Below, piece after piece: positions 30,213-53,210 of a stretch of DNA of 64,000 nucleotides. The stretch covers positions 34,441-98,440 of the IMG/VR virus record IMGVR_UViG_3300047444_000577. One strand, 5' to 3'. The stretch is from a virus. Under the pieces are notes generated by a model. That model was not told the DNA's origin. It saw nothing but the letters and a program-made list of their open reading frames with translations, and made no database searches. Position 1 is the stretch's first letter; each line of letters opens with the position of its first letter. A program made the translations under genes and the position numbers.

Positions 30213-31292
30213 TCACTGCGTCCGGCGCAGCGGTACGACATTCTCCTGGCTGACCATGGCGGTAAGGAAGGGCTTCCCCCGGAGCATCTGGTCCCGGCGT
30301 GCTCGCTCGCTGGACAGGCCAAGGTACCGCTCAGTGGTGGACATGGATGCATGGTGCAGCAGAGCACTGACAGTGCGCAGTGCTGCGTCGTAGCCGATCT
30401 CGTTGGTCATGCTATCGAAATAGGCGCGGGCGACTGCCCGGCGCAGGGTGTGGGTGCCCTCGTAGCGGGTGGGCAGACCTACAGCGGCCAGGGCGTGCTT
30501 GACGATCTTCTCGGTGCGGGTGACCGGGCGCTCGGGGTGGTAGGTGTACGGGGTGCGCTCCAGGATCCTCGTGCCGGTGTTGGGGTCGAGGTAGTTGCGG
30601 GCGATGACGTTGCCGGACCGTGCGGGGAAGAGGTAGTCGTCGGCGCGCAGGGGGCGACCAAGGGTGGCGGCGTACTCGACGAGCCAGACCCGCAGTTCTC
30701 GTTCGAGGTCGGCGGTCAGGGGCATCTCGTCCTCCTCCTGGGTTTTGACCACGGTCACGAAGACCTCCCCGGCCGCGAAGTCGATGTCACCGACGCGGAT
30801 GCCCGTGATCTCGCTGGCACGGCAGGCGGTGTTGATGGCCACGGCCAGGTAGGCACGGTGCATGGCGCACTCGGCCTGGTCCAGGAGCTGGAGCAGCAGG
30901 TTGGGGCTGGGCTGCTGGCGGCGTCGGCGGGGCAGCTTGAGTGGCTCGACGCCGTCAAGGAGGGTGCCGGACTCGGTGTAGCCGTTGGCCTTGGCCCAGG
31001 TGAAGAAGACCCGCAGCCTGGCGCGGTAGTTGTTGTGGGTGCCGGGGCCGACGGCCTCGCGGATGGTTTGGCCCTTGATGCGGGTGGAGTGGGTGTCCAT
31101 GACGCCCCCCTCGCCGTAGAAGAAGTCGCGGACGACGTCCATGGTGAGCTGGCTGAAGTCGGGGTCACCCACGTGTCCGGCGAATCGTGGCAGCAGGGTG
31201 CGGTCGACTCGCATGGTGTTGTGCGCCTTCCCGGCCCGCTTGCGCAGGGACAGGTACTCGGTGACTGCGGTGCTGACTGTGCCGCTGCTCAT
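30213..31292 (-). CDS. Tyrosine recombinase/integrase
   Basis: 359 aa. An N-terminal SAM-like core-binding domain (about 1-115) precedes the catalytic domain. Catalytic residues are visible in order: Arg in CRASEITGIR (about 157), Lys in VTVVKTQEE (about 180), His-x-x-Arg in GTHTLRRAVA (about 282), His in LLHHASMS (about 312) and the Tyr nucleophile in STTERYLGL (about 322). It cuts and rejoins DNA at att-type sites. It is divergent from the serine integrase 400 bp away. It could serve as a second integrase, an excision/dimer-resolution enzyme or a relic of a second element. Confidence 0.92.
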   Translation of the reverse strand: MSSGTVSTAVTEYLSLRKRAGKAHNTMRVDRTLLPRFAGHVGDPDFSQLTMDVVRDFFYGEGGVMDTHSTRIKGQTIREAVGPGTHNNYRARLRVFFTWAKANGYTESGTLLDGVEPLKLPRRRRQQPSPNLLLQLLDQAECAMHRAYLAVAINTACRASEITGIRVGDIDFAAGEVFVTVVKTQEEDEMPLTADLERELRVWLVEYAATLGRPLRADDYLFPARSGNVIARNYLDPNTGTRILERTPYTYHPERPVTRTEKIVKHALAAVGLPTRYEGTHTLRRAVARAYFDSMTNEIGYDAALRTVSALLHHASMSTTERYLGLSSERARRDQMLRGKPFLTAMVSQENVVPLRRTQ

Positions 31293-31685: not shown

Positions 31686-33719
31686 ATGGGCAAGCCCACT
31701 ACCCGCCAGAGGTTCCTCGCACGGGCAGACAAGGTTCTGCGTGTAGCGATTTACCTCCGCGTGTCCACCGCCGCGCAGGTCCAGGGATACGGACTCCAGA
31801 CCCAGAACGAGATGTGCCACGACACCCTCACCGTGAAGATGCGCGGGCAGCGGTTCGTAATCGTGGACACCTACACCGACGCGGGCGTGAGCGGCAAGAA
31901 GGCCAGCCGCCCCCAGTTCGACCGCATGAACCAGGACATCGCCGACGGCAAGATCGACGTCGTCGTGGTCGCCAAGGTCGACCGCATCGGTCGCACGATG
32001 GAGGACATCCACCGCTGGGTGTTCGACATCGACCATGTCGGCATCCGCCTCATCACCGCAGACGGCCGTCTGGACAATGCCGACGACACCTTCAAATTGA
32101 TGCTCTCCCTGCTGGCGTGGATGGCCGACACCGAGCACCTGCTGATCCTGGAGCGCACCACCGGAGGCCGCGAGGCCAAGCTGCATGAGGGTGGTTGGGT
32201 CGGCGGAGGCACGCCCTTCGGGTTCATGCTCGAAGGCAAGGGTGCTACTGCCAAGCCGGTCGCCAATCCTGCCGAGGTCGAGATCCTGGAACTGGCTATC
32301 GGGAGCATCGTTGATCACGACATGACGGTGAAGGAGGCCGCTGACTCGCTGAACAATCTCGGGAAAGTCAATCGACACGGCGGCAAGTGGGAGCAGTCGA
32401 ACCTCCGTCAGATCCTGCTCGGCAATGCCCTGCTCGGCTTTATGGCGTTCCGCGACGAGGAAGCCAACGGCAGTCGCGCAAATGCGGCACGCGACGAGGA
32501 GACCGGCGAATACCTGCACGGTGACACCGGGCGCGTCAGCCTCCCCGAAATCATCCCCCTGGAGCGCATCAAGGCCGTGCGGGCCGCACTCACGCGACGG
32601 GGTCCTCAGCGTCACCGTGAAGCGGGAATGTACCTGCTCTCGAAGAGGCTTTTCGGGCTGTGCGGAAACTACTACAGCGGGGCCGTGAAGACGCATAACG
32701 ACCGTCGGTCCTACCGCTGCACAGGCACGCTCTCCTCCCACAAGAACTACGTGGGCTGCGGCTGCACGGAGATCGACGCGGATGAGGTCGAACGCGTGGT
32801 CTGGCAGACCGTCTCCGAGGGTTTCCGGGACCGGGGACACCTGCAGGACCTGGCCGACCAGTGGCTCGGTGCTGTGCCCCTTCTGGCCACCGGCTACCGC
32901 GAGCGCATCGCGGAGCTGGAGGAGCTGCTGGAGCGCAAGCGAAAGAGCCGCAAGAAGCGTCTCGTGACCCTGCTGGCGTTGGCTGACGACGATGACGACT
33001 TCGATGCCGAGATGCTGGCCGACGTCAAGGCCGAGCTGAAGAACCAGGAAACCAAGATCGAGAAGGAGCTGAACCAGGTGCGGGGGTGGCTCGCCGACGC
33101 GGAGGTGCAGGAGCAGCGGGTCGCCGATGTATTGACCCTGGCGGACCGGGTACGTCCCGATCTGGACAGCCTGACCGAGATGCAGATGCTCGACGCCCTG
33201 ACGCTCTTCGACATCGGAGTGCACGTCCGCTCGCGGGTGGAGCGGCGGGCGGTGAAGCCGACGGAGTTCGAGACTTGGTTCAAGGGCTCCGGCCTGCTGG
33301 TGCCCGCTGTGCTGAGCGACGAGTCGTGGGCCGCCGTGGTGGACCTGTTCCCGCCCGCACGGGGCACCAAGCCGCAGCGGTCGCGTCGGGAGATCCTGGA
33401 TGCGGTGTTCTACAAGGTCCGCCACGGTCTGTCGTGGCCGGAGATGCCGGAGGAGTTCACGGCGGTGGAGAGCATAAAGGTGCTGGCGACAAAGCTGCTG
33501 CGGGATGGCTCGCTGCCGGAGGCTGTTCAGAGGCTGCAAGGGTTCGGGGGCACTCCGCCGCCTTCCCTCAACCCGCTGCCTGACCTTCACATCGAGGCGT
33601 CGTTCATGGAGCGCCGTCCCGATCCGAGCAACCTCACGATGGAGTGCGTTACGGAAGGACCCTCACGAGTAACCTTCGCGGAAGTGCTCCATCGTGAGTA
33701 TGTAACAGCAGCTTCCTGA
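31686..33719 (+). CDS. Large serine integrase with an added C-terminal transposase-type helix-turn-helix domain
   Basis: 677 aa; ribosome-binding site GGGAG. The resolvase domain has the catalytic Ser27 in YLRVSTAAQ and the family signature VDRIGRTMEDI. A recombinase domain and a zinc ribbon follow (Cys in LFGLCGN, YRCTG, VGCGCTE at about 324-358), then a coiled coil (about 400-470). Residues about 540-620 (LSDESWAAVVDLFPPARG ... RREILDAVFYKVRHGLSWPEMP) match the IS5-type transposase N-terminal DNA-binding domain (DUF4096), unusual for an integrase. It would catalyse attP x attB integration. Confidence 0.92.
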   Translation: MGKPTTRQRFLARADKVLRVAIYLRVSTAAQVQGYGLQTQNEMCHDTLTVKMRGQRFVIVDTYTDAGVSGKKASRPQFDRMNQDIADGKIDVVVVAKVDRIGRTMEDIHRWVFDIDHVGIRLITADGRLDNADDTFKLMLSLLAWMADTEHLLILERTTGGREAKLHEGGWVGGGTPFGFMLEGKGATAKPVANPAEVEILELAIGSIVDHDMTVKEAADSLNNLGKVNRHGGKWEQSNLRQILLGNALLGFMAFRDEEANGSRANAARDEETGEYLHGDTGRVSLPEIIPLERIKAVRAALTRRGPQRHREAGMYLLSKRLFGLCGNYYSGAVKTHNDRRSYRCTGTLSSHKNYVGCGCTEIDADEVERVVWQTVSEGFRDRGHLQDLADQWLGAVPLLATGYRERIAELEELLERKRKSRKKRLVTLLALADDDDDFDAEMLADVKAELKNQETKIEKELNQVRGWLADAEVQEQRVADVLTLADRVRPDLDSLTEMQMLDALTLFDIGVHVRSRVERRAVKPTEFETWFKGSGLLVPAVLSDESWAAVVDLFPPARGTKPQRSRREILDAVFYKVRHGLSWPEMPEEFTAVESIKVLATKLLRDGSLPEAVQRLQGFGGTPPPSLNPLPDLHIEASFMERRPDPSNLTMECVTEGPSRVTFAEVLHREYVTAAS

Positions 33720-34233: not shown

Positions 34234-34543
34234 AGAAATTCTCCAGGACGCAGTCAGGTACCTCGTCGAAACGCTTGGTCTCGCGGATGTGCTCTTGGCT
34301 CATGGCGTCCTCACGCCCTCGCGTCGCCGTGAGCAGAGCCTCCTCCGCCGTCCGGCCGGTTCTGCGCCAGCGGCCGAGAACTATCCCGTAGCCCCGGCCC
34401 AGGTGCACGACCAGGGATCGGGACGTTCGGTACGGCGGGTCGAGTTCTTCGGTCGACGCGGTATGAAGGAAAGGCGTTTCGGGGACCAGCCTTACCGGGT
34501 GAAAGAAGAGCGGCGTCAGTGGGATATCGCGGGCGTGTGGCAT
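34217..34543 (-). CDS. Hypothetical protein
   Basis: 108 aa. It has beta-strand rich N-terminal half (SRSLVVHLGRGYGIVLGRW) and a helical end (MSQEHIRETKRFDEVPDC). It carries an LHT word at about codons 26-28. It starts 4 nt after the zinc-ribbon gene ends. No family is recognised. Confidence 0.6.
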   Translation of the reverse strand: MPHARDIPLTPLFFHPVRLVPETPFLHTASTEELDPPYRTSRSLVVHLGRGYGIVLGRWRRTGRTAEEALLTATRGREDAMSQEHIRETKRFDEVPDCVLENFYDVHL

Positions 34544-34713: not shown

Positions 34714-35193
34714 TCAGGAGACGCCGGTTGGCTCGTCGAGGTCGTGCTCGGGTGCGTAGGCGTAGCCGTTGAGGACGCGGTTGATTCCTCGGCCGGGGGA
34801 TTGCCAGCGCTTGAAGTTCCGCCAGACGTTCGGGGGCACGTTGTAGTACCCGTAGACCTGTCCGTTGCGGAAGCGCACCCGGAGCGTCTGGGAGTCCTTG
34901 TCGTAGCCAGCGGCAAGGGTTCGTGGGCGCGGCGGGTTGATCGAGGGGGTGGGCTGGTAGGGCAGGAGGTCGAAGTCGTCGCCGTCCTTGGCCAACTGGA
35001 TGGCTTCGGCCAGTTCCTGTGACATGACCCGCCGGGATCCTGCGCGGGCTGCGGGGTTCTCGTTGCTGGGCGGGGGTGGCTTGGGGTCGGTGAGGTGGCC
35101 GAACATCGCGCGCTCGTACTTGTTGCCAGGGCGGGCCGCGCTGATGTCGATGTGGGGGATCTCGGGGCCGCCTCGGCGGCGCTTGCTGGGCAT
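34714..35193 (-). CDS. KTSC domain protein
   Basis: 159 aa from ATG 35193 with an AGGAG site. Residues about 100-150 (AAGYDKDSQTLRVRFRNG, then YGYYNVPPNVWRNF and GRGINRVLNG) match the KTSC domain, a roughly 60-residue fold found alone or with nucleic-acid enzymes. The N-terminal half is basic and disordered. A hairpin at 35213-35245 precedes it. Function of the domain is not firmly known. Confidence 0.75.
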   Translation of the reverse strand: MPSKRRRGGPEIPHIDISAARPGNKYERAMFGHLTDPKPPPPSNENPAARAGSRRVMSQELAEAIQLAKDGDDFDLLPYQPTPSINPPRPRTLAAGYDKDSQTLRVRFRNGQVYGYYNVPPNVWRNFKRWQSPGRGINRVLNGYAYAPEHDLDEPTGVS

Positions 35194-35212
35194 AGAGGGC
35201 TCCTTAGACGAA

Positions 35213-35245
35213 GACAGCCCCGCCCCGGTTAGGGACGAGGCTGTC
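35213..35245 (-). terminator. Hairpin between the 35276 and 34714 genes
   Basis: GACAGCCCCgCCCC pairs with GGGacGAGGCTGTC over a 5-nt loop, in the short spacer after the minus-strand gene at 35276. Confidence 0.65.
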
Positions 35246-35275
35246 GGCTCCAGGCGGTCAGTCCTGGAGGGTGTG

Positions 35276-35707
35276 TCACGCGGCCGGGGGGACCTGCGGG
35301 ACGGTGGAGACGAGCGCCGGGGCGGCCGGGTCACCGAGGATGGCCGTGGTGGCCGCCGCATTGGTCGTACCGGCAGTGACGTCGGTTGCGTTGGCCGCGA
35401 GGGCGACCTTGTCAGCGGGCTCTGGGCCACCGGGGTGGGTGGCGGCCTCCTCGGCGGAGACGACGATCAGGCCGGAGTTGTGCGACTCCGGGTGGAAACC
35501 GGCGTCGGCCTGGACCTGCGGGTTCGGCAACTGGCCGATGACGAAGACCTGGCCGGGGACGGACGACTGGACCTTGAAGGCGGCGGAGGACTGGACGGAC
35601 CAGCCGAGGTTCGGGTCGTCCCAGTCGGAGGGGCGCTTCGGGAGGGTCGGAGTGGAGTAGACGGTGGGCTCGGCAGCGGGCTGCACGGAGTCGTTCTTTG
35701 CTGGCAC
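35276..35707 (-). CDS. Ala/Pro-rich hypothetical protein
   Basis: 143 aa. The first half carries a compact mixed region (DDPNLGWSVQSSAAFKVQSS; GQVFVIGQLPNPQV) and the second half is Ala/Thr/Pro-rich low complexity. It has no signal peptide. It is followed directly by a terminator hairpin. Confidence 0.6.
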   Translation of the reverse strand: MPAKNDSVQPAAEPTVYSTPTLPKRPSDWDDPNLGWSVQSSAAFKVQSSVPGQVFVIGQLPNPQVQADAGFHPESHNSGLIVVSAEEAATHPGGPEPADKVALAANATDVTAGTTNAAATTAILGDPAAPALVSTVPQVPPAA

Positions 35708-35728
35708 TGTGATTCTCTTTCCTCGGTG

Positions 35729-35860
35729 TTAGCCGTTTTGCTGGACGGTCCAGCCGGGCTCTTTCACCAGCCCCTGCTCGTCCTCACTGTCATTGTGAGG
35801 GCAATCGGGGCCGTGATATACATGCTCGCCGTCGATGAAGACGCAGCGGGAGACGTACAC
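35729..35860 (-). CDS. Tiny Cys/His-rich protein (43 aa)
   Basis: 43 aa with a GTG start at 35860 and a good AGGAG five bases upstream. Cys/His residues (SRCVFIDGEH; YHGPDCPHNDS) suggest a metal-binding knuckle. It lies 21 nt upstream of the 35276 gene. Too small for a family call. Confidence 0.5.
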   Translation of the reverse strand: MYVSRCVFIDGEHVYHGPDCPHNDSEDEQGLVKEPGWTVQQNG

Positions 35861-35867
35861 GGTGCTC

Positions 35868-36059
35868 CTAAAGGGAACTTCCGGTTGCGGAATTCGAGCC
35901 TAGTGGCAATCCCGCCCCACTTTCCCATGGGCCGCAGTCGCCGAATTGGTCTCCGGACAGCATGCTCTGTCGCGGCGGGGCCCCGTTGAGGGTGTAGGCG
36001 TATCCACCCGCGTATGCGTCCCCGGTGGCAGGGATGGGTTCGGGCTTAGGTGTGGGCAT
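35868..36059 (-). CDS. Small Pro/Gly-rich hypothetical protein
   Basis: 63 aa; the ATG at 36059 overlaps the end of the 36046 gene by 14 nt. Composition is Pro/Gly/Ser-rich with no hydrophobic segment. Supported mainly by overlap spacing. Confidence 0.45.
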   Translation of the reverse strand: MPTPKPEPIPATGDAYAGGYAYTLNGAPPRQSMLSGDQFGDCGPWESGAGLPLGSNSATGSSL

Positions 36060-36252
36060 GTGTCTTCTCCCGGGCCGCCGCGAAGCCGGTGCGCAGTTTG
36101 GCGAGGCGTGCGTTGTGGAGGCTGAGGCTGGCCATGTGGTCGACGGCGGACTCGACGAGGTTGCCTACCTCTGCGATCCAGCGGTCGAGCAGGTCCTCAG
36201 CCTCGGCGATGTCGTCGGGGACGGTTGCGCGGGTCTTCGACAGGAGTGGCAT
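36046..36252 (-). CDS. Small helical hypothetical protein
   Basis: 68 aa of mostly charged helix (AEAEDLLDRWIAEVGNLV; HNARLAKLRTGFAAAREK). Start and stop overlap its neighbours, with ATGA-type coupling at 36252 to the membrane protein gene. Confidence 0.55.
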   Translation of the reverse strand: MPLLSKTRATVPDDIAEAEDLLDRWIAEVGNLVESAVDHMASLSLHNARLAKLRTGFAAAREKTHAHT

Positions 36253-36599
36253 CAGGTGCTCCTCCGTCGGCGCGGGGTGGGAGGAGTGGTGCCGTGCTGG
36301 AAGTAGTCGAGCACGTCTTCGAGGACGTCGGTGACGGTGGCCTGAGAGGTGATGCTGTCTCGGGTGGTCTGGATGAGGTCGCGGGCCGCGATGACCATCT
36401 GTTCGGCGAGGGGCACCACTCGCTCGGTCAGGGTCCGCAGGCGCTTGTTCTCCTCGACCTCGCGGCGGTAGGCCTTGCCGGAGACGACGACTTCTGTGAC
36501 GAACACGGCGAATATGAACGCAGCGATCGGCCCCAGGACGAGCGGGTTATCTATGGACAGCCCGCCCGACCCTGGGGCCGATGCGATGAGGTTGTGCAT
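36252..36599 (-). CDS. Single-pass membrane protein with cytoplasmic coiled coil (holin-like)
   Basis: 115 aa. One hydrophobic segment at about residues 20-42 (LVLGPIAAFIFAVFVTEVVVSG) is followed by a charged helix (KAYRREVEENKRLRTLTERV) and a basic tail ending RRRRST. This layout is shared by several holin or holin-like proteins. It is far from the secreted hydrolase at 48.3 kb, so a lysis role is uncertain. Confidence 0.55.
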   Translation of the reverse strand: MHNLIASAPGSGGLSIDNPLVLGPIAAFIFAVFVTEVVVSGKAYRREVEENKRLRTLTERVVPLAEQMVIAARDLIQTTRDSITSQATVTDVLEDVLDYFQHGTTPPTPRRRRST

Positions 36600-36664
36600 C
36601 GGGGTACCGCCCGTCGCTGAAATGTGGTTTCAGCTAAATGATACCGGGGATACGGTAACCGCTT

Positions 36665-36883
36665 TTAGATATGAAGACCGGATTTCTTGAGCTGATTCCT
36701 GACCTTGATCCAGCCCGGCCCGCAGCCGGTGAGCCCGCTGATGATGGCGGTCACACCGTCCGGAGACTTCCACTTGACGTGATTCCCTCCGGTGATCGTC
36801 ACCTCCCACCCCGCCTTCCTGGCCTGCTTGGCCGCCTTCTCCAACTCCTTGTCTGCGCCGAGCCTTGATCCTTTTACGCCCAC
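36665..36883 (-). CDS. HicA-like (YcfA) small RNA-binding fold protein
   Basis: 72 aa from a GTG at 36883 preceded by GGGAG. The pattern KAAKQARKAGWEVTITGGNH then VKWKSPDG..AIISG matches the HicA double-stranded-RNA-binding-like fold, including the Gly-x-His of the mRNA interferase active site (GGNH). No HicB partner is encoded beside it, so it may be an orphan toxin or a repurposed RNA-binding protein. A longer start at 36922 is possible. Confidence 0.7.
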   Translation of the reverse strand: MGVKGSRLGADKELEKAAKQARKAGWEVTITGGNHVKWKSPDGVTAIISGLTGCGPGWIKVRNQLKKSGLHI

Positions 36884-37204
36884 TGGCAGCTCCCATCTCG
36901 TAGCAACTCCTGCTGAAATCAAAGGTATTGGTCTTGAGTGTCCGTTGACAACCGATTCCGAGGATCAGCTTGCGTGATGCAGGTCACATTGACCTCTCAG
37001 CCCTTGACATACCCCTGTGCCACCTTGTCGAAATAGCGTTCGACCGACCTGTTTGACCTGCAGAAACAGCGTAACTCCGCACACGGGTGAACGTCGGGAC
37101 TACGGAACGGCGTCACTCAGAGTCCCCGGGGTAGGCGTAGGAATTCCTCCGCACCGACCGGTGCTGGAGTTAATTGAAGGATGAACCACTGCAGGAAGGA
37201 ACCT
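36884..37204. other. Intergenic region with candidate promoters
   Basis: No convincing gene. It contains a TTGACA box at about 36945 over an ACCGATTCCGAGG element like the phage operator half-site, and a second TTGACA at about 37005. A GGTCAcatTGACC inverted repeat and a GACCTG direct repeat are also present. It separates the minus-strand HicA-like gene from a plus-strand gene, so divergent regulation is likely. Confidence 0.45.
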
Positions 37205-37369
37205 ATGGAGTACGGCTCCACAATCACGCTCCGCACGTACCAAGTCAGCGCCGACGGCCAGGTCAGCGAGGCGACGGCAGCGCGCACCGTTCCGGGTAGC
37301 GCCGAGAACGCGAGGGACGTAAACATCCACCGCTGGCCTGCATGTGCATGCCCCAGGCATCGCCGGTAG
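37205..37369 (+). CDS. Small hypothetical protein
   Basis: 54 aa from ATG 37205 with AGGAAGGA upstream. The first half looks like beta strands (MEYGSTITLRTYQVSADGQV) and the end is Cys/His/Arg-rich. A strong hairpin follows its stop. No family is recognised. Confidence 0.55.
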   Translation: MEYGSTITLRTYQVSADGQVSEATAARTVPGSAENARDVNIHRWPACACPRHRR

Positions 37370-37382
37370 GTACCCACGCCAA

Positions 37383-37421
37383 AGAGCCCCCTACGGACGG
37401 GCTGCGTGCGTAGGGGGCTCT
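37383..37421. terminator. Bidirectional terminator
   Basis: AGAGCCCCCTACG pairs with CGTAGGGGGCTCT. It lies between the plus-strand 37205 gene and the 3' end of the minus-strand regulator gene. Confidence 0.8.
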
Positions 37422-37462
37422 AGCGGTGCTACTGCTCGCCGAAGGCGAACGCAGGGTCAAAT

Positions 37463-38665
37463 CTAGGCAGCGAGTCCTGTCCTCCTCGCCATAGCCATAA
37501 GCTCCGGCCTGCTCCGCTGGTGCAGGAGGAACAGCACACGCAGGACCTCCCGCGCCATCGGATGCACCTCGGTCATCTGAGGCGCGACATTGAACGCCCG
37601 CTGCAGCGATTCCTCCGCCCCGACGTTGTCCTGGAGCGCCAGACGCGCCCGCGCGGTGTCGATGTACAGGTGTGCGACCCGGGACGGCCGAAGGCCTGCC
37701 GGGGGGTTGTCGAGGAGGGGGGTCGCCATGTCGTTGGCCTTGTCCGGCTTGTCCAGCTCCACCTTCGACGCAAGGTCGTGAAGGATCGTGTTGGCGGTGC
37801 CGAACGTGAGGTTGTGCCGGAGCTGGTCCGCATCCTGCGGCAGAGCCTCCGCCAAGGCGTAGGCCTTGTCTGAGTGCGCCTGGGCGGTCACCCTGTCCCG
37901 GTGCCGTGAGGCCAGGACGACGCCACGCAGGTGAAGGGATCCGAGGCTGACAAGGCGGTCGGGGTTGTCCCGGGTTCCCGAGGTCTCCAGCTTCACGATC
38001 CCCCGGTCGACGACCGCAAGGCCTGATGCATAGTCTCCGGCGCTCTGGAAGACACCTGCCTCCGTCCAGGCCACTCCCGCTTCCGCGTTCGGGCTGTACG
38101 TCTGCTGCGCCGCCCAGGACTGCCGCGAGACGATCATCTCCGCGAGGTCGGGCTGCCCCAGCCGGTGGGCGACTGAGTAGGCGCAGCCGTAGGCGTCGGA
38201 CAGGGCCTCCCAGGCGACGCTGTCACCATCGGATGCCAGTGCCGTCGCCGTCGCCTGCTCCAGCAGCTTCGGGATGATGCGGAGCATTTCCATGTACTTC
38301 GTCCCCGCGCGCAGCTCGGCGAGATCGGCGAGGTTGGTGCGCAGCTCCTGCAGGTCCGGGACGTCTTCCTGGGGCAGTCGGTACCGGCGGATTGCTGCGC
38401 GGAGATCGTTGAGGAGTTCACCTTGTTCGACTGGCCCTATGAAGGGTTGTCCGTAGATGCGCTGGGTGCTGACCTTCAGCGCTCTTGCGAGGGCCGCGAA
38501 GATCGCGGGGGTTCCGGGGCGCTCGCCGGTCTCGATCTTGCGGAGGTAGTGCTCGGAGACTCCGGCGAGGCGTGCCAGTTCCCGGCGTGAGTGGTTGCGT
38601 GCCTTCCTCAGCAGCATGACGTTTTCGCCAGGGGCCGGGGAGCTGGCCTGAATAGTGCTGTCCAT
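37463..38665 (-). CDS. XRE-family regulator with TPR-like C-terminal domain
   Basis: 400 aa. Residues about 15-70 (MLLRKARNHSRRELARLAGV ... YLRKIETGERPGTP) are a classic XRE helix-turn-helix. The remaining 330 residues are helical repeats of TPR type. This is the large regulator type found by the dozen in Streptomyces chromosomes, usually next to a DUF397 gene, and that is the case here (39783). It is transcribed away from the plus-strand genes, so it may control the shared 38666-38809 region. Confidence 0.85.
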   Translation of the reverse strand: MDSTIQASSPAPGENVMLLRKARNHSRRELARLAGVSEHYLRKIETGERPGTPAIFAALARALKVSTQRIYGQPFIGPVEQGELLNDLRAAIRRYRLPQEDVPDLQELRTNLADLAELRAGTKYMEMLRIIPKLLEQATATALASDGDSVAWEALSDAYGCAYSVAHRLGQPDLAEMIVSRQSWAAQQTYSPNAEAGVAWTEAGVFQSAGDYASGLAVVDRGIVKLETSGTRDNPDRLVSLGSLHLRGVVLASRHRDRVTAQAHSDKAYALAEALPQDADQLRHNLTFGTANTILHDLASKVELDKPDKANDMATPLLDNPPAGLRPSRVAHLYIDTARARLALQDNVGAEESLQRAFNVAPQMTEVHPMAREVLRVLFLLHQRSRPELMAMARRTGLAA

Positions 38666-38809
38666 GTGCTCAGCCTTCCACGTCCGGGCTTCGAGGACGT
38701 TAACTCGTCAATGCCCTAGGGCCATTGTGTCACTTTTGGGTCAACTGATCTTGGTCTCAGGGAGTTGACTTGTAATCAGGAAGAGCACGATCGAATAGGG
38801 AGGCGATGG
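38666..38809. promoter_or_regulatory. Divergent promoter region of the XRE module
   Basis: The spacer carries GGGTCAACTGATC and GAGTTGACTTGT, giving a TTGACT -35-like box on the plus strand and a TTGACC-like box on the minus strand. It is the only spacer between the regulator and the small plus-strand genes and is the likely operator site. Confidence 0.45.
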
Positions 38810-39121
38810 ATGACAGTGCCAGGAGAAGCTGGCCTCCACCTTAGGCCTGATCAGGCGTTACCGCAGCAGCAAAAGGCCGAGGACATCGCACTCCGATCTG
38901 CGATGCGCTTCCAGGACGCACTCGCACTGATCGGCGTGGACATCGTCTCCGTGACGCCCCTGGTTTCCCGCCGTGGGTCCTCTGGCGTGCGACTGGGAGT
39001 ATGCGAGGCCTCCGATGTGGACAAGGTCTCCGAGGCCGTCGAACAGGTGGCCTCCGAGCGGGCCAAGGCCGCGCTGCTCGCAAAGACCATCATGGAGTTC
39101 GCGGAAGGGGGTGCGAGATGA
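38810..39121 (+). CDS. Small hypothetical protein of the XRE-DUF397 module
   Basis: 103 aa; GGGAGG lies upstream of ATG 38810. The middle (FQDALALIGVDIVSVTPLVSR ... VRLGVCEASDVDKVSEAVE) is alpha/beta and the end is helical. Small unknown proteins of this kind accompany XRE-DUF397 pairs in Streptomyces. It overlaps the next gene in ATGA. Confidence 0.6.
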   Translation: MTVPGEAGLHLRPDQALPQQQKAEDIALRSAMRFQDALALIGVDIVSVTPLVSRRGSSGVRLGVCEASDVDKVSEAVEQVASERAKAALLAKTIMEFAEGGAR

Positions 39122-39315
39122 CCGCGAGAGCCAGGAAGCAGTCCAGACCGGTTCCGGCACCACCCCCCGTGGGCGCGCGGGTACGTCTCAAGCAGACGGA
39201 TAGCGAAGGTCATGTGACGGCCCACTTGTTCGGCGAGATCTACGTTCGCCCGATCGGGGGCGGGGTGGAGTGGTCGGCACCGCCGGAGGACGTGGAACGG
39301 ATCCCCGATGCCTAG
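39118..39315 (+). CDS. Small hypothetical protein
   Basis: 65 aa starting in the ATGA overlap. Beta-strand pattern (GARVRLKQTDSEGHVTAHLF; EIYVRPIGGGVEWSAPPEDV) suggests a small SH3-like or DUF-type barrel. It is followed by an equally small protein with a similar ending. Confidence 0.55.
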   Translation: MTARARKQSRPVPAPPPVGARVRLKQTDSEGHVTAHLFGEIYVRPIGGGVEWSAPPEDVERIPDA

Positions 39316-39511
39316 CCGCCTCGACATGCTGTTTGAGGATGCGTACCAGGGCGGTTGCCCGTGGAAGGTCAACGACGTGCTGAGGGACTTGCGCAGCGGT
39401 CGTGTCGGCATCGTCCTGGACGTCAATTACATCTATCTGATGATGCGACCGTCCGAGGGTGCGGGCATGCACTGGACCGGAGCGCCCGGCGACTTCGAGA
39501 GGGTGGCTTAG
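39308..39511 (+). CDS. Small hypothetical protein
   Basis: 67 aa, overlapping the previous gene by 8 nt. It contains CPWKVNDVLRDLRSGRVGIV and ends GAGMHWTGAPGDFERV, echoing the GGVEWSAPPEDVER ending of the previous gene; the two may be diverged relatives. Confidence 0.55.
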   Translation: MPSRLDMLFEDAYQGGCPWKVNDVLRDLRSGRVGIVLDVNYIYLMMRPSEGAGMHWTGAPGDFERVA

Positions 39512-39512
39512 C

Positions 39513-39737
39513 GTGATCGTCGAACATCGGCTCCCCCGCGCGCGGTCACGGGCAGCATTCTTCCTCGGTGCCCGCCAGGCCCGCCTGGAGCTGGCACAAG
39601 GACTGCACCCGATGCCTTCGGGACTACCCCACCCGATTCTCCTCGGAGTGAGTACGGAGCCCTCCGGTGCTCTCGTATACCCGTTCCCGCAGCGGTACCG
39701 GCCCACAGACTCCCACCCTTTTCGGGATGGGGCGTAA
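39513..39737 (+). CDS. Small hypothetical protein
   Basis: 74 aa from a GTG immediately after the previous stop (tagcgtg). Arg/Ala-rich N-terminus and a Pro/Ser-rich end. No family is recognised. Its support is gene spacing and codon phase only. Confidence 0.45.
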   Translation: MIVEHRLPRARSRAAFFLGARQARLELAQGLHPMPSGLPHPILLGVSTEPSGALVYPFPQRYRPTDSHPFRDGA

Positions 39738-39782
39738 GACTTCACGCCGCAGCGGTGTGGAGAGTCCAACGTTGGAGGACAG

Positions 39783-40013
39783 ATGTCCGAGATCGAGAAC
39801 CTGTACGACCGGCCCATCGCGGGCCCGTTCCAGGCCTTGTGCGGCGGCGGGACGAACGACGGGTCCATGGAGGACTGCCTGGACGTGGCCCCGCTGCAGG
39901 GCGGCGGCTACGCCCTCAAGGACACCAAGCTCGGGGACGCCAGCCCGGTCCTGCGCTTCACCAAGGCCGAGCTGATCGCGGCGGCGCAGAAGCTCGCCGA
40001 CATGCCCGCCTGA
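39783..40013 (+). CDS. DUF397 family protein
   Basis: 76 aa with a TTGGAGGAC ribosome-binding site. The core CGGGTNDGSMEDCLDVAPL then YALKDTKLGDASPVLRFTKAE follows the DUF397 pattern (S/G-rich, CVEVA, RDSK, GPVLRFTPAEW). In Streptomyces these small acidic proteins pair with XRE/TPR regulators (WhiJ-like sets), as here with the 37463 gene. The role is likely as a partner or antitoxin-like controller of the regulator. A hairpin follows. Confidence 0.75.
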   Translation: MSEIENLYDRPIAGPFQALCGGGTNDGSMEDCLDVAPLQGGGYALKDTKLGDASPVLRFTKAELIAAAQKLADMPA

Positions 40014-40035
40014 TCTGATCCACCGCAAGTAGCGC

Positions 40036-40066
40036 GGGGTGCCCTCACCACTAATGAGGGCACCCC
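40036..40066 (+). terminator. Terminator after the DUF397 gene
   Basis: Perfect stem GGGGTGCCCTCA / TGAGGGCACCCC with a 7-nt loop, 23 nt past the DUF397 stop. Confidence 0.8.
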
Positions 40067-40104
40067 GCCCCTTGAGGTTACCCGCCGACCCCCGGAGCGT
40101 TCCT

Positions 40105-40995
40105 GTGTCCCTGGCCGTACTGCTAGATGACCCTGACGAGACTCTGCGCGCCTGGCCCAGCAAGCCGACGCTGTACCACCGACACCCGAAGTCCTTCCGT
40201 CCGCTGCTCACGCGGGAGGAGGTGGACGACCTGATTGACAACGACTGCCTGGCCATGCGGAACGTCGCGCTTCTCGCGGAGGGCAAGCCCGTCGACCCGC
40301 GCCGGTATGCAGACGGCGACATGCCCCGGCGGGGCGCGCTGCGGCAGCACCTCGACGAAGGTGGGACTATCTCCCTGCGAGGGCTGGAACGGTTGAAGCC
40401 CTCACTGGCCATCCTGCACCGCGAGGTAGCGCTGGAGACGGGATACCGGACCCACGTGAACGCGTACTACACACCCGCCGGACAGCAGGGGCTGCGGTAC
40501 CACTTCGACCCGTACGTGACGCTGATCCTTCAAATTGCCGGGCAGAAGGCGTGGCCGACACACCGACCGTTCGTCGAGAACCCCGTGCGCGAGTACGACA
40601 GTTACCACCTGATCGGGTTCACCGAGGCGCAGTTACACTTCCTCGCGAACACGCCACCGGCCGAGACGTACACCCTGGAGCCGGGCGATGTGTTCTGGCT
40701 TCCGCGCGGGTACGTCCATGCCCCCTACGCAGTCGGGGATGAGCCCTCTCTGCACATCACCCTCGCACTGAAGGAGAGGACGTGGCAGTGGGTGGCCGCG
40801 CAGCTCGCCGAGGACGTGGTGGCGGAGGCCCTGCGAGACCCTGCTATGCGCGAGGCCATCGCTCCGGCCGTGCTTCTCGGAGATCCCCGAGAGGTCATCC
40901 GCGACGCACGGGACTACCTCGTCGGTGCGCTGCGTGCCCGTGACCCCGAGGAAGCTGCCAAGCGTCTGCGTAGGGTCGCCCTCGAATCGACCTGA
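40105..40995 (+). CDS. JmjC/cupin-8-type 2-oxoglutarate, iron(II) oxygenase
   Basis: 296 aa from a GTG at 40105 with GGAG eight bases upstream. The iron site is visible: H133-x-D135 in LRYHFDPYVTL and the distal H205 in LPRGYVHAPY, spaced as in JmjC/cupin-8 hydroxylases. The N-terminal region (WPSKPTLYHRHPKSFRPLLT) and a long helical C-terminus also fit bacterial ribosomal-oxygenase-like proteins. Substrate is unknown. It lies right after the XRE-DUF397 block and looks like a host-derived cargo gene. Confidence 0.8.
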   Translation: MSLAVLLDDPDETLRAWPSKPTLYHRHPKSFRPLLTREEVDDLIDNDCLAMRNVALLAEGKPVDPRRYADGDMPRRGALRQHLDEGGTISLRGLERLKPSLAILHREVALETGYRTHVNAYYTPAGQQGLRYHFDPYVTLILQIAGQKAWPTHRPFVENPVREYDSYHLIGFTEAQLHFLANTPPAETYTLEPGDVFWLPRGYVHAPYAVGDEPSLHITLALKERTWQWVAAQLAEDVVAEALRDPAMREAIAPAVLLGDPREVIRDARDYLVGALRARDPEEAAKRLRRVALEST

Positions 40996-41049
40996 CGACA
41001 CGGCTCGACTCGCTCACACCACCCGCTCTGAACTGGGAAGCTATCCGCT

Positions 41050-41529
41050 ATGCCGCCGCAGCAACACGCCGATGACATCGACTGGGACGCCTACATGCAG
41101 GGGCCTCCGGCCTCCGGCGTCCACTGGCACGGCTTCCTCTGGAAGGGGGAGGCCGCAAGGATCTTCAGCTTCAAGCACCAGGCGGAGCGCACAGCGGGTA
41201 CGCCGGACTTCGCGGGGTCGAATACGCCCCCGGAGATGACAACGCATCATCTGCTGAAGCCGCATCTCGTCAAGGCTACGTTCACGAATCCGACCGAGGC
41301 AGCCGCTTGGATGCGTCAGCAGTGGGAGGCGGACCCTCCGCTGGAGACGTACAAGAATCCCGACAGTTGCCAGAAGTTCAGCCGACGCATGGCCGAGCTG
41401 GGCAAGGACGTGGTCTGGTCGTGGGACTGGCCGAGGCTGGGTGACAACACAACCGTCCGCGTCTACATGATCACATGTCCGAGTGAGTCGGATCCGGGCA
41501 TCCGCTGTCCGGCTCCACCGAGGCGCTGA
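41050..41529 (+). CDS. Hypothetical protein
   Basis: 159 aa. N-terminal DWDAYMQGPPASGVHWHGFL and later LLKPHLVKATFTNPTEAAAW and MRQQWEADPPLETY. Mixed alpha/beta, soluble, no catalytic motif recognised. It follows the oxygenase and ends before a strong hairpin. Confidence 0.6.
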   Translation: MPPQQHADDIDWDAYMQGPPASGVHWHGFLWKGEAARIFSFKHQAERTAGTPDFAGSNTPPEMTTHHLLKPHLVKATFTNPTEAAAWMRQQWEADPPLETYKNPDSCQKFSRRMAELGKDVVWSWDWPRLGDNTTVRVYMITCPSESDPGIRCPAPPRR

Positions 41530-41543
41530 GCGGACCGCTCAGC

Positions 41544-41594
41544 AGGAAGCCCCCGACTGTCCGCCATGGAGGACTTGGCAGTCGGGGGCTTCCT
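41544..41594. terminator. Bidirectional terminator
   Basis: AGGAAGCCCCCGACTG pairs with CAGTCGGGGGCTTCCT across a longer loop. It stands between the convergent 41050 (plus) and 41601 (minus) genes. Confidence 0.8.
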
Positions 41595-41600
41595 CATTGT

Positions 41601-41924
41601 CTACTCGAATTCGATGTCGTACAGCGCTGCGCCGTCCTCGGGACCGTCCTCGCGGTCATCCGCATAGAACCTGTCGAGAACGCCGTGGGCTGCGGACAGA
41701 TCCTTGACTGCTTCGGACGGCGTGAACTCGGTTTGCACTGAGATGCCGTGCTCGTCTGGGTTCGGGTCGATGCTGTGAGTGATGTCGGTGACTCGGAAGG
41801 CGACTCCCTGGAAGTCCAGGGTCTCTCTGATGCGGGGCAGTGGCTGCTGGTTGAGCCGAAGAAAAAAGGTTAGGTTTCGGCCGGGCTCGGCGGGGTTGGT
41901 AACGAAGACGAACACGGGGTTCAC
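41601..41924 (-). CDS. Hypothetical protein paired with the 41921 gene
   Basis: 107 aa from a GTG in a GTGA overlap with the upstream gene. Beta-rich N-terminus (VNPVFVFVTNPAEPGRNLTF) and acidic C-terminus (DDREDGPEDGAALYDIEFE). Its strict coupling suggests that it works with the 370-aa partner. Confidence 0.6.
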   Translation of the reverse strand: MNPVFVFVTNPAEPGRNLTFFLRLNQQPLPRIRETLDFQGVAFRVTDITHSIDPNPDEHGISVQTEFTPSEAVKDLSAAHGVLDRFYADDREDGPEDGAALYDIEFE

Positions 41925-43033
41925 TTGCGCATGTCCCTTCGGCGGAGTGGGTCGTGGCGCTGGGGGTTGACGGGGACGATCTGGGTGACGGGGTTCTGGC
42001 CGGGCTCCAGCATTTCGCGCTTGGTCCAGTAGGGCTCGACCCATTTGGTGGTGGACTGCTGGCGGCCGGGACCGTAGTGGACGGTCTTGAAATGCCCGGC
42101 CCGGTGCTGCGGACCGTATTCGGCACCGCTGGGGAGGGAGGGGCCGTCCTTCCCCACCAGGGCTCGCTGGCGGTTCTCGTGAAGGGCTGTGCCGACGAAC
42201 CAGCCGACCCTGATCCAGAAGGGGTCGCGGGGCTTGCGGTTCTTGCCGGTCTTCTTCCGGTAGGTGTTGTGGTGCGAGGCTTCGAAGTTCTCCACGTCGC
42301 GGTTGTCGCAGCACAGGTACGTCATGACCGAGAAGATCGGCGCGAGGAGCGGTCCCAGGATTTTCCTGCTCACCGCGAGATCTTGGGCCTCGTCGGGAAC
42401 GCCCTGCCACTCCTCGATGAACTCGATGGCCTCGGCGACGGTGAACTTGCTCCGGCCGGTGGGCAGCGGGAGCAGCATTCTGTTGGGGCCGATCTCCAGC
42501 TCGCCGGTTTCCTCGTTGACGACGTCGTAGAAGACGAGGACGCCGAGGCCTTCGCGCTGCGGGTCGTTGGTGTCGCACAGTGCGGTGCCGACCCAGCCGA
42601 AGACGAACCAGCCGCGTACCCATCCCTGGGTCTTGGACAGTGGGCTCGATACGGGCCAGGGGTCGGGTAGTACGACCATCGGGTTGATGTGGGGAAGCTG
42701 GTCGAAGAGGCTGCCGGGGATGGAGTCCTGCTTGCTGCGGTACAGCGCGGCGGCGAGTTCCTCGTTTATGTCGTAGGCGATGCGTCCGTTGCGCTTCCAC
42801 ATGTCGCAGACCGCGATCTCGCCCATCAGGTCGCCCACCTGCGACAGGGTCTGGCGGTCGAAGCGCACGTGGTCGTCGTAGCTCCACCGGATGGGGATGC
42901 CCCGGCCGAGTGAGTCGATCATGCGGGCGAGCCGGGGATCCCCTGCGAGTTCCTGCCCTGCGTTGGTGAGCGCTTGGACGTGGGCCTCGGCGAGTTTGTG
43001 GGCTCGCTGGCCGCTGCGGATTCTGTCGGGCAT
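41921..43033 (-). CDS. Large hypothetical protein, likely Streptomyces-type cargo
   Basis: 370 aa from ATG 43033 with a strong AAGGAGG. It has an alpha-helical N-terminal 120 residues, an amphipathic middle (WFVFGWVGTALCDTN; LGVLVFYDVVNEETGELE) and a basic end (NTYRKKTGKNRKPRD). No membrane segment or nucleotide-binding motif is seen. It forms a two-gene operon with its own promoter. I do not recognise it. Confidence 0.6.
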   Translation of the reverse strand: MPDRIRSGQRAHKLAEAHVQALTNAGQELAGDPRLARMIDSLGRGIPIRWSYDDHVRFDRQTLSQVGDLMGEIAVCDMWKRNGRIAYDINEELAAALYRSKQDSIPGSLFDQLPHINPMVVLPDPWPVSSPLSKTQGWVRGWFVFGWVGTALCDTNDPQREGLGVLVFYDVVNEETGELEIGPNRMLLPLPTGRSKFTVAEAIEFIEEWQGVPDEAQDLAVSRKILGPLLAPIFSVMTYLCCDNRDVENFEASHHNTYRKKTGKNRKPRDPFWIRVGWFVGTALHENRQRALVGKDGPSLPSGAEYGPQHRAGHFKTVHYGPGRQQSTTKWVEPYWTKREMLEPGQNPVTQIVPVNPQRHDPLRRRDMRK

Positions 43034-43059
43034 CGCCCCTCCTTCTGGTGAGGAGCATA

Positions 43060-43089
43060 ACGGTAGCCACCCCCACACCTTTTCGTCAA
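43060..43089 (-). promoter_or_regulatory. Promoter of the 43033/41924 operon
   Basis: On the minus strand TTGACG (43089-43084) and TACCGT (43065-43060) are spaced by 18 nt, followed by the AAGGAGG site and ATG 43033. Confidence 0.55.
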
Positions 43090-43132
43090 GTTATTCCGCG
43101 TAATTGCTTGACGACTGATAGCTGAAAACCGA

Positions 43133-43167
43133 GAGCCCCGGCCGTCCAGTGAGGACAGCCGGGGCTC
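43133..43167 (-). terminator. Terminator of the 43.2-46.8 kb operon
   Basis: GAGCCCCGGC..GTCC pairs with GGAC..GCCGGGGCTC, lying just after the tiny membrane gene at 43174. Confidence 0.78.
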
Positions 43168-43173
43168 AGAGGG

Positions 43174-43275
43174 TCAGCGGGCCAGCGCTATCCAGACCCA
43201 TCCGACGATCACACAGGTGATCGCGGTAGCGGCACCGACGGTCAGCAGGACCTCAAACCGCTGGTACCACTTCAC
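43174..43275 (-). CDS. Tiny single-pass membrane protein (33 aa)
   Basis: 33 aa from a GTG that overlaps the MazG-like stop (GTGA). After KWYQRFEVLL there is one hydrophobic stretch (VGAATAITCVIVGWVWIALA) filling nearly the whole protein. Such micro membrane proteins are easily missed; function unknown. Confidence 0.55.
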   Translation of the reverse strand: MKWYQRFEVLLTVGAATAITCVIVGWVWIALAR

Positions 43276-43793
43276 AGCCACTCCCCCGTCACGACACCGC
43301 GCATGTCGGCGGGCCGGTAGGTGTCGGGCTTGAGGATCTTCCCGTCACCGCGACGCAGCACCGTACCGTCAGGGCGGACCTTGCTCATGTTCGAGCGGTG
43401 GACCTCGGCGAAGGCCGCCTCCAGCGGGATCTCCAGCAGGTCGGCCGTACCGTAGATCACGTACAGCAGGTCGGCCAACTCCTTGGCCAACTCCTCGTAG
43501 TAGCGCGGGGCCTCGGGAGTGGCCTCGTCCCGTCCCGGCAGGAACGGGCTGGTCGAGGACTCTGCGACCCACGCGTCTACGATCTGCGCCTTGCGGTGGT
43601 CCAGCAGGGCCTCCAGGACCTCCTGGGATTCCTCCGAAATGAGTGCGGAGCGCAGGGAGACCAGGTCGTCCCGCCCGGCCTCGTCACGTTCGATGAAGGG
43701 GGTCTCCCCCACCGCCCGGTGCCACTCGCGCAGCGCCTTCATGGGGTGGTGGGGCTGGGTATGAAGCCGGGTTCTCGGTGTGGCTCGGGACAC
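43272..43793 (-). CDS. MazG-like nucleotide pyrophosphohydrolase
   Basis: 173 aa from a GTG at 43793 with GAGGAA upstream; the ATG at 43742 lacks a ribosome-binding site. Metal-binding acidic residues are visible in EESQEVLEAL and in YYEELAKELADLLYVIYGTAD (EExxE and ExxD of the MazG fold). MazG enzymes hydrolyse nucleoside triphosphates and can lower (p)ppGpp-linked starvation signals during infection. The N-terminal extension contains the LHT word. Confidence 0.8.
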   Translation of the reverse strand: MSRATPRTRLHTQPHHPMKALREWHRAVGETPFIERDEAGRDDLVSLRSALISEESQEVLEALLDHRKAQIVDAWVAESSTSPFLPGRDEATPEAPRYYEELAKELADLLYVIYGTADLLEIPLEAAFAEVHRSNMSKVRPDGTVLRRGDGKILKPDTYRPADMRGVVTGEWL

Positions 43794-43804
43794 TGTCTGG
43801 TTCC

Positions 43805-44350
43805 TCACTTGCTCGCGGGGGTGATGGCGGTACGTACGTGCTCGGGCAGTTCGGAGATGATCTGCTCGCGCAGAGCGTCGGACTCCTTGAAGTTCATGCC
43901 GATGGTGCGCCAGTCGCCGGAGGTCAGCAGCGAGAGGTACGGGCGCTGCTTCCACACCGCCTGGAAGGTCCCGGCCGACCGCAGGCGGGCCAGGTTGCCC
44001 CGGATGCCCGAGCGGCCGTTGTGGTGACCCACCCACAGCCGCCTGCCCGCGTCGTACTCATCGAGGTCGAACATGCCGCTGCTGATCAGGGACCAGGGCG
44101 TCACCTCACCCCGCTCGACCCTGTCGGGGTCGAAGTCAATGTTGTAGTGAACGTGAGCGTCGTTGAGGGAGGTTCCCCGGTAGGACTCGGCGGTGGCGAG
44201 GATGCCCTCCGCCCGGTGCCACATGATGACGTGGTCCTCCTCGACCCCGCCGGTCCGGGAAAACTTCTTCTCGCGGACGACCTCGAAACCGTCCTCCTGG
44301 AACATGGCGACGTAGTCGATGAAGAGCATCCCGTAGCGGGAGTCGGTCAC
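43805..44350 (-). CDS. Hypothetical protein
   Basis: 181 aa. Mixed alpha/beta with several His and Trp (EEDHVIMWHRAEGI; DAHVHYNIDFDPDRV; RRLWVGHHNGRSGI). No recognised motif. It lies between the papain-fold protein and MazG in the same operon. Confidence 0.6.
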   Translation of the reverse strand: MTDSRYGMLFIDYVAMFQEDGFEVVREKKFSRTGGVEEDHVIMWHRAEGILATAESYRGTSLNDAHVHYNIDFDPDRVERGEVTPWSLISSGMFDLDEYDAGRRLWVGHHNGRSGIRGNLARLRSAGTFQAVWKQRPYLSLLTSGDWRTIGMNFKESDALREQIISELPEHVRTAITPASK

Positions 44351-48328: not shown

Positions 48329-48982
48329 CTACTTCACGGTGAAGCGGCCGTACGACACGCTACGGCTCCAGGGTGCGTAGAGGCCCACTCCGCGCCCGGG
48401 GCGCTCGGCCTCCAGCCAGGTGTGGCTGTTGACGTAGATGGCGACGTGGTAGACGTAGCCGCTGGAGTCGTGGACGAACACCAGGTCGCCCGGCTTCGGG
48501 CTGCTGACGTGCTGGGCGGCCCTGTACTGGTCGTCAGCGACACGGGGGATCCGCTTGCCGAGGTGGGCGAACACGTACTGGGTGAGTCCACTGCAGTCGA
48601 AGCCGGACCGGCTTTCACCGCCCCAGACATAGCGGATCCCTCGCAAGGTCTCCGCGTAGGCGACGACCTTCGAACCCGAGGTGGGTGCCGGAGTCGGCTT
48701 GGGCTTCGGCTTGGGCTTGGGCTTCGGGGTGGTACCGCTGGACCCGGAAAGCAGAAGGCGCTCCCCGGGGTAAATGCGGTTGGGGTTGAGCAGGTGGTTG
48801 ATGGAAGCCAGGTGCTCCCAGGTGGTGTGGTGGGTGAGCGCGATTCCACTGAGGGTGTCACCGCTCCGGACAGTGGCGTACTGGGACGTGCTGGGTGCGT
48901 GTGCCTGCGCCTCCGCCGCAGGGGCAATCGGAATGACTGCCAGGGCAGCAGCCAGCGTGAGTCCTGCAATCCGCTTGTTCAT
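48329..48982 (-). CDS. Secreted LysM-NlpC/P60 peptidoglycan endopeptidase (endolysin candidate)
   Basis: 217 aa. A signal peptide (MNKRIAGLTLAAALAVIP.. to AEAQAHA) is followed by a LysM domain (about 38-80: ATVRSGDTLSGIAL..NPNRIYPGERL). A proline/lysine linker and an NlpC/P60 domain (about 105-215) complete the protein. Catalytic Cys is in FDCSGLTQYV and His in YHVAIYVNS. It cuts stem peptides in the wall. Export by its own signal makes it independent of a holin for release. Confidence 0.9.
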   Translation of the reverse strand: MNKRIAGLTLAAALAVIPIAPAAEAQAHAPSTSQYATVRSGDTLSGIALTHHTTWEHLASINHLLNPNRIYPGERLLLSGSSGTTPKPKPKPKPKPTPAPTSGSKVVAYAETLRGIRYVWGGESRSGFDCSGLTQYVFAHLGKRIPRVADDQYRAAQHVSSPKPGDLVFVHDSSGYVYHVAIYVNSHTWLEAERPGRGVGLYAPWSRSVSYGRFTVK

Positions 48983-52457: not shown

Positions 52458-53210
52458 CTAGAAGTCGCCGGGGGCGACCTGCAGGCAGGTCAGTCCGAGG
52501 GTGTTTCGCCACATCTCGACCACCTGGTCACGGTCGTCGAGAACGAGCCGGACGTTGTACTTGCCCTGGATGTCCCGGCGGTAGATCTCCTCCTTGACGA
52601 TGAAGTCCTTTCGGCCGTCCTTCCGTGGCCGCATCAGGAGTTGCAGGTCAAGGACCCATTCCCCCAGGTGCTCGCGAAGCCACTCCTGCGTGTCGTCGAA
52701 GCAGACGACGTCTCGGCCGGACATGAAGATGATCTCGGCGTGGGATCCCCAGTACAGGGTCTTGACCAGTTCGACGACGTCCGTGATGGGCTCGTCCCCT
52801 CCGACCTTCCGCCAGTCGAACGGCCCCCGGTCCACCCGCCGGGCCAGCGTGCCGTCGATGTCCACCAGGATCGCTTCAGGGAGTTCCTCGACTGCGGTGG
52901 GTTCGGTCACGTTCTTCTCCTCGGTCGGGGTGTGGCAGCAGGTGTCGCAGATGTGCACGGCGAGAACGCTCACGTCCGGATCCCAGCCGTGGATCTGCTC
53001 CTTGAAGGCGAGGTCGTCCGGGTCGGGGTGGGCGTAGCCGTGCGGGCAGACGCGCTCCATCAGCATCAGCGCCGAGTTGAAGTGCTGCGGGAAGTCACGC
53101 ATCCCGTGGTTGGAGGGGTTGTGCACCGCGCAGTACGGACCGATACACACGCCAGCGGGGTGGGAGTAGATCTGCTGTCCGCCCTCCAGAACCGTGTACT
53201 CCAGCGTCAT
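52458..53210 (-). CDS. HAD phosphatase (polynucleotide kinase 3'-phosphatase type) with N-terminal Cys/His domain
   Basis: 250 aa. Residues 1-105 contain Cys/His groups (GVCIGPYCAVHNPSNHG, ERVCPHGYAHPD, HICDTCCH), likely a zinc domain. From about 110 the HAD motifs follow: ILVDIDGTLARR (motif I), IIFMSGRDVV (II), RKDFIVKEEIYRRDIQG (III region) and VLDDRDQVVEMWR (IV). This order fits the phosphatase half of T4 Pnk, which removes 3' phosphates from nucleic acid ends. No kinase P-loop is present. Confidence 0.8.
   Translation of the reverse strand: MTLEYTVLEGGQQIYSHPAGVCIGPYCAVHNPSNHGMRDFPQHFNSALMLMERVCPHGYAHPDPDDLAFKEQIHGWDPDVSVLAVHICDTCCHTPTEEKNVTEPTAVEELPEAILVDIDGTLARRVDRGPFDWRKVGGDEPITDVVELVKTLYWGSHAEIIFMSGRDVVCFDDTQEWLREHLGEWVLDLQLLMRPRKDGRKDFIVKEEIYRRDIQGKYNVRLVLDDRDQVVEMWRNTLGLTCLQVAPGDF

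Follow-up and report, generated by a model that had tools for sequence, protein, structure and literature searches.

Linked DUF397, JmjC oxygenase and ORF159 genes in a phage related to Streptomyces myophages and in actinobacteria

What use does a phage have for a predicted Fe(II)/2-oxoglutarate (2OG) oxygenase whose gene lies beside those of an XRE-type regulator and a DUF397 protein? The question is raised by a 64,000-nucleotide stretch of DNA (the window), positions 34,441 to 98,440 of the IMG/VR virus record IMGVR_UViG_3300047444_000577, which has 98,440 bases in all. A first reading of the window (the original prediction) had described positions 37463-40995 as a WhiJ-like set, of the kind common in Streptomyces chromosomes, followed by a JmjC oxygenase. 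In our best explanation, which we hold with about even confidence, the genes for the DUF397 protein (39783-40013, plus strand), the oxygenase (40105-40995, plus strand) and a 159-residue protein, ORF159 (41050-41529, plus strand), are the phage's own copy of a mobile actinobacterial cassette, whose protein hydroxylase would have DUF397 and ORF159 as working partners. No description of a DUF397-JmjC cassette was found in the literature searched.

The linkage of the genes was consistent. The phage JmjC protein belongs to a distinct subfamily. A DUF397 gene stood directly upstream at all 33 loci found for it (21 bacterial or plasmid, 12 phage or prophage), and the ORF159 family was represented at 30 of them. 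The 16 JmjC homologues that fell outside the subfamily and had comparable flanks, which were the weaker hits of the JmjC searches, were all without a DUF397 or ORF159 neighbor. Of 299 genomes from a single family (by inference Streptomycetaceae, as the Streptomyces plasmid and phage relatives suggest), 29 matched a JmjC profile at E<=1e-40. At the subfamily places in the profile-searched genomes, DUF397 was found within 1.5 kb in 19 of 19 cases and ORF159 in 16 of 19. Wider alignments were needed for these searches; single-protein queries for close relatives returned only a second record of the same phage, and a two-row alignment returned one genome. DUF397 genes are numerous, with 4-41 per genome and a mean of 27 per genome of about 8 Mb. 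The probability of meeting one by chance within 1 kb upstream can be estimated at about 0.2% per locus (27 copies x 1 kb / 16 Mb, counting both strands), which, set against the presence of DUF397 at all 33 loci, excludes a chance association. The consistent pairing suggests that the enzyme and the DUF397 proteins work together.

Gene order followed the JmjC tree, which split into two clades, one with the order DUF397-ORF159-JmjC and the other with DUF397-JmjC, with or without ORF159. A Streptomyces plasmid has the order XRE-TPR, DUF397, 159-residue homologue, JmjC, and in Actinoplanes siamensis DUF397 is followed by the 159-residue homologue and JmjC. The phage copy belongs to clade B and is 56-64% identical to seven bacterial relatives. 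The three proteins also co-vary (Mantel r 0.45-0.75, with none of 2000 permutations as high), and they do so within the clades too.

The cassette has moved repeatedly between bacteria and phages. A degenerate scan of IMG/VR identified 12 viral contigs with a JmjC gene of the subfamily. Setting aside the second copy of the source phage, in all 11 the JmjC gene was closely preceded by DUF397 and adjoined by an ORF159-like gene, two of these 11 ORF159 matches being weak (25 and 34 bits). A terminase was present in 12 of 13 viral records, and five records, two of them of the source phage, had BRock-like terminase and portal families in common. Some isolate-genome contigs (two are cases in point) carry the cassette near the contig end, where it may be host flank. 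Viral copies were scattered over the JmjC tree, and its well-supported branches force at least five switches between host and virus. The source record itself has the gene content of a phage (tail sheath, tape measure, baseplate wedge, portal, terminase, exonuclease and two integrases), bearing out the phage context claimed in the original prediction. Nor is the region a bacterial insertion peculiar to one isolate: a second metagenome (IMGVR_UViG_3300046809_000477) yielded it again, differing at 3 of 12,954 bases (99.98% identity), and it is also present on other phage contigs.

Since phages carry the cassette repeatedly, it can affect the interplay of phages and hosts among antibiotic-producing bacteria. 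Mobile and patchily distributed genes that are swapped between phages and chromosomes would also be expected if DUF397, ORF159 and JmjC formed a defence, superinfection-exclusion or toxin-antitoxin-like unit directed against competitors, in phages and hosts alike. DUF397-HTH pairs have been proposed as toxin-antitoxin systems (PMC2701414), and DUF397 is also encountered in NTP-dependent conflict systems (PMC7159879). However, when 14 XRE/DUF397 pairs of S. coelicolor were overexpressed, none of them showed type II toxin-antitoxin behavior (PMC10364602). Neither a nuclease nor any other killing domain was found in the cassette, and PADLOC matched neither DUF397, JmjC and ORF159 nor the small upstream proteins, the XRE regulator being matched through its helix-turn-helix (HTH) part alone. 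We consider a role in conflict possible, but doubtful.

The JmjC protein was assigned to JmjC/ROX-type Fe(II)/2OG oxygenases (JmjC_2, PF08007, E 6.6e-18) and also matched PHROG 8014, a group of phage proteins of unknown function (E 3e-11). The complete HxD...H site noted in the original prediction was corroborated: the metal ligands H133, D135 and H205 and the 2OG-binding K148 (numbering of the 296-residue protein) align with those of MINA53 and NO66, and all four are invariant in 21 relatives. The predicted structure (predicted local distance difference test, pLDDT, 91.9) gave its best PDB fold matches with NO66 and MINA53 (E 1.9e-19, TM 0.70-0.73), although the match covers only about half of the NO66/MINA53 chain (TMt 0.46-0.53). 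By sequence and fold, the nearest proteins are NO66 (RIOX1) and MINA53 (RIOX2), followed by Bacillus YxbC and then YcfD, and all share with the phage enzyme the JmjC_2 fold, a double-stranded beta-helix with the HxD...H triad and the 2OG lysine. Unlike NO66 and MINA53, the phage enzyme has only 296 residues and ends, in the model, in a helical bundle instead of a C-terminal winged-helix domain; it also differs in its strict linkage to DUF397, and identity over the fold match is about 16-25%. The reaction is likely to be protein hydroxylation, because of the NO66/MINA53-like enzyme family.

All genes placed between 37463 and 40995 in the original prediction were present, but the bounds had to be amended on two counts. 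The start of the oxygenase is very probably the GTG at 40105 and not the listed position 40039, because the latter falls inside a perfect 14-bp inverted repeat (40034-40068) and because relatives also begin at the position of 40105. The unit moreover extends to 41529, as the gene for ORF159 is part of the cassette.

ORF159, the least known component of the cassette, had been overlooked. It founds an unnamed actinobacterial family, with invariant H25, H27, G33, P61, W87, C143, C153 and P154, and it carries the complete family signature of HxH...G near the N-terminus, P61, A-x-x-W, D and C-P...C-P at the C-terminus. No match was found in Pfam, NCBIfam or PADLOC. The AlphaFold2 model is confident (pLDDT 91.3, predicted template-modelling score 0.86), and no fold match was obtained in the PDB or BFVD (best E 1.1 and 0.36). 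Of 395 Actinomycetes genomes, 22 had a member of the family, which very often followed a DUF397 gene immediately. H25, H27, C143 and C153 were invariant whether or not JmjC was alongside, suggesting that these residues form a structural or metal site and are not a JmjC-specific target. The common cellular order is a protein of about 70-98 residues, DUF6879, XRE-DUF5753, DUF397 and ORF159; this operon, which has no JmjC gene, is widespread in actinobacteria (five of our loci are examples).

The DUF397 (BldB-like) protein of 76 residues scored 19 bits with PF04149, under the cut-off of 24 bits, and a Pfam scan of the phage's own genome at the cut-off had no DUF397 match for this reason. The assignment in the original prediction nevertheless holds, as the protein aligns with a family that includes an Actinoplanes homologue above the cut-off (32.6 bits). 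The residues C, G, G, E and C were invariant in the alignment of 22 JmjC-linked members, defining a CGG...E-C subtype.

In Streptomyces, a variable cargo gene next to a DUF397 gene is switched on by WhiJ-type regulators; BldB, itself a DUF397 protein, restrains this activation but does not bind DNA (PMC10294661). XRE-DUF397 pairs act as regulators of antibiotic production and not as toxins with antitoxins (PMC10364602). What BldB and the many DUF397 proteins do biochemically has long been a puzzle in work on Streptomyces. DUF397 beside an XRE gene and a variable cargo gene is a layout that the phage locus has in common with the WhiJ-BldB(DUF397)-AbaA/IosA loci (PMC10294661) and the Scr1/Scr2 XRE-DUF397 pairs (PMC6262351, PMC10364602), both of which are multi-copy in Streptomyces. 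In line with the rewiring of host development raised in the original prediction, the phage locus could be imagined to alter sporulation or antibiotic production in a lysogen, with JmjC as the cargo effector. DUF397 proteins hetero-oligomerize with BldB, cargo-bearing loci, those with iosA for example, block sporulation (PMC10294661), and Streptomyces is the host of the phage's isolated relatives.

The XRE gene of the phage argues against such developmental rewiring. The large regulator expected from the original prediction is encoded at 37463-38665 on the minus strand (400 residues, XRE/TPR-like; HTH_31, E 8e-11; PHROG 5823 over the full length, E 4e-75). Its Pfam matches were limited to HTH families, with no DUF5753, and a DUF5753-XRE profile matched the HTH part alone (20 bits). 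In the tree, it grouped with the regulator of Streptomyces phage PapayaSalad (support 100/98). Given the missing DUF5753 and this grouping, the regulator is not of the WhiJ type. WhiJ/BldB loci are recognized by an XRE protein with C-terminal DUF5753 and an adjacent DUF397 gene, and only the second of these was found here. The XRE proteins of most chromosomal DUF397 loci that we examined do have DUF5753, and a profile search of the rest of the 98-kb contig identified no XRE-DUF5753 or DUF6879 gene, so that the label of a WhiJ-like set could not be upheld. The cargo is JmjC plus ORF159, and the DUF397 protein, being of a divergent subtype that scores below the cut-off, also differs from those of canonical loci. 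Several chromosomal relatives do resemble WhiJ-type loci, with the JmjC cassette directly after an XRE-DUF5753 gene in the same orientation. Altogether, we regard developmental rewiring as unlikely, slightly more so than a role in conflict.

Returning to a hydroxylase that acts with cassette-encoded partners, we infer the following course of events. Like NO66, MINA53 and YcfD, JmjC would hydroxylate the side chain of a protein residue. Its dedicated partners would be DUF397 and ORF159, either presenting the substrate or being the substrate. The state of the DUF397 protein, and of any regulator that it contacts, would then depend on O2, Fe(II) and 2OG. In a lysogen, the level at which the divergent cassette is expressed would probably be set by the XRE protein, and the cassette product would alter a host protein in a way that benefits the lysogen or the phage. 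The more specific proposal that the linked JmjC hydroxylates the DUF397 proteins of the subtype, or a DUF397-ORF159 complex, is a tentative one that we think improbable as it stands. If true, it would amount to an O2- and 2OG-dependent switch on a BldB-type regulator, in phages and in Streptomyces-type hosts. The strict tie between a DUF397 subtype, a ROX-type hydroxylase and a family of unmatched fold makes for a concrete, testable biochemical hypothesis.

Several observations weigh against such a partnership. ORF159 was not detectable at three clade-B loci, and many genomes have ORF159 and DUF397 without JmjC. A search of DUF397 and ORF159 for residues conserved solely beside JmjC yielded none that were convincing, so neither protein is marked as a substrate. 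The 14-bp inverted repeat between the DUF397 and JmjC genes, a probable terminator or processing hairpin (-32 kcal/mol), may uncouple the expression of the two. Finally, the XRE gene is of phage lineage and was not inherited together with the cassette, and its control over the cassette is only a guess from the divergent arrangement. A regulatory link is plausible, since a related XRE-TPR gene precedes the cassette in the Streptomyces plasmid, in one genome and on another viral contig. Direct-repeat operators were sought in the gap between the XRE gene and the small open reading frames (38640-38830), where we found none, just a weak 7-bp inverted pair.

The position of the cassette in the phage is accessory. 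The nearest isolated relatives of the phage, with 61-63% identity in the terminase and 47-49% in the tail sheath, are the BRock-like Streptomyces myophages Alone3, LuckySocke, GiJojo, pSt2308 and BRock, which have the same order of structural genes as the source phage but, unlike it, neither JmjC nor ORF159. The XRE gene and the cassette lie in a segment of 7.8 kb (35431-43271) between the orthologues of Alone3 gp66 (MazG; 43272-44036) and gp67 (34714-35430). The two are adjacent genes in Alone3; in Alone3 and BRock, no more than about 0.3 kb separates the MazG gene from the next one, and isolated BRock-like phages have about 0.2 kb in place of the 7.8 kb. Since the isolates have neither JmjC nor ORF159, and the 7.8-kb insert is missing from Alone3 and BRock, the cassette is accessory cargo in this phage lineage. 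It belongs to a plus-strand gene group in a mostly minus-strand genome, with the minus-strand XRE gene facing away from the group. A perfect 16-bp inverted repeat (41544-41594, -39 kcal/mol), probably a bidirectional terminator, closes the cassette. We think, with the odds close to balanced, that the layout is best explained by insertion of the cassette as moron-like cargo on the opposite strand, where it ends in a terminator of its own and has a phage-type XRE regulator as neighbor. Just past the 3' end of the XRE gene lies another probable terminator, a 17-bp inverted repeat with 94% complementarity (37383-37421) that folds with about -30 to -34 kcal/mol. Near the same gene, 36665-36922 (minus strand) encodes a small HicA-like protein (Pfam E 7e-4, below the cut-off; PHROG 353, 'toxin', E 6e-5).

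Small plus-strand proteins upstream of DUF397, a further element of the original prediction, were also found. They are s1 (38810-39121, 103 residues), s2 (39118-39315, 65 residues) and s3 (39308-39511, 67 residues). s1 had no match in Pfam or PADLOC and no relatives among the fetched loci, s2 had weak relatives at three loci, and s3 had coding-type GC content at third codon positions (GC3) and no family in Pfam or PHROG searches. As consistent relatives across loci were missing, we do not regard s1-s3 as conserved cassette genes. A fourth small reading frame at about 39513-39737 is doubtful and was not counted.

These findings also bear on the idea that JmjC hydroxylates a small cassette-encoded peptide to yield a bioactive product, that is, a ribosomally synthesized and post-translationally modified peptide (RiPP). 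DUF397-DUF5753 genes do flank some graspetide clusters, and 2OG oxygenases do tailor RiPPs (PMC13097080). However, no precursor-like peptide, s1-s3 included, is kept across the loci, ORF159 is compact and globular in its model (pLDDT 91), DUF397 is a known domain, and Pfam and PHROG scans recognized no cyclase, protease or transporter beside the phage cassette. We therefore consider RiPP tailoring highly improbable.

Elsewhere in the window, a tyrosine integrase gene (30213-31292, minus strand) lies beside a serine integrase gene (31686-33719, plus strand) in the one phage, and the pair sits between orthologues of genes that closely flank each other in BRock-like phages. The serine integrase reading frame (677 residues) ends in a part (residues 543-603) that matches a fragment of an IS4/5-family transposase (PF13340), as though an insertion element had been joined to the frame or had broken it. 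The minus strand further encodes a protein with a PNKP-type phosphatase domain (52458-53210) and a LysM-NlpC/P60 protein (48329-48982).

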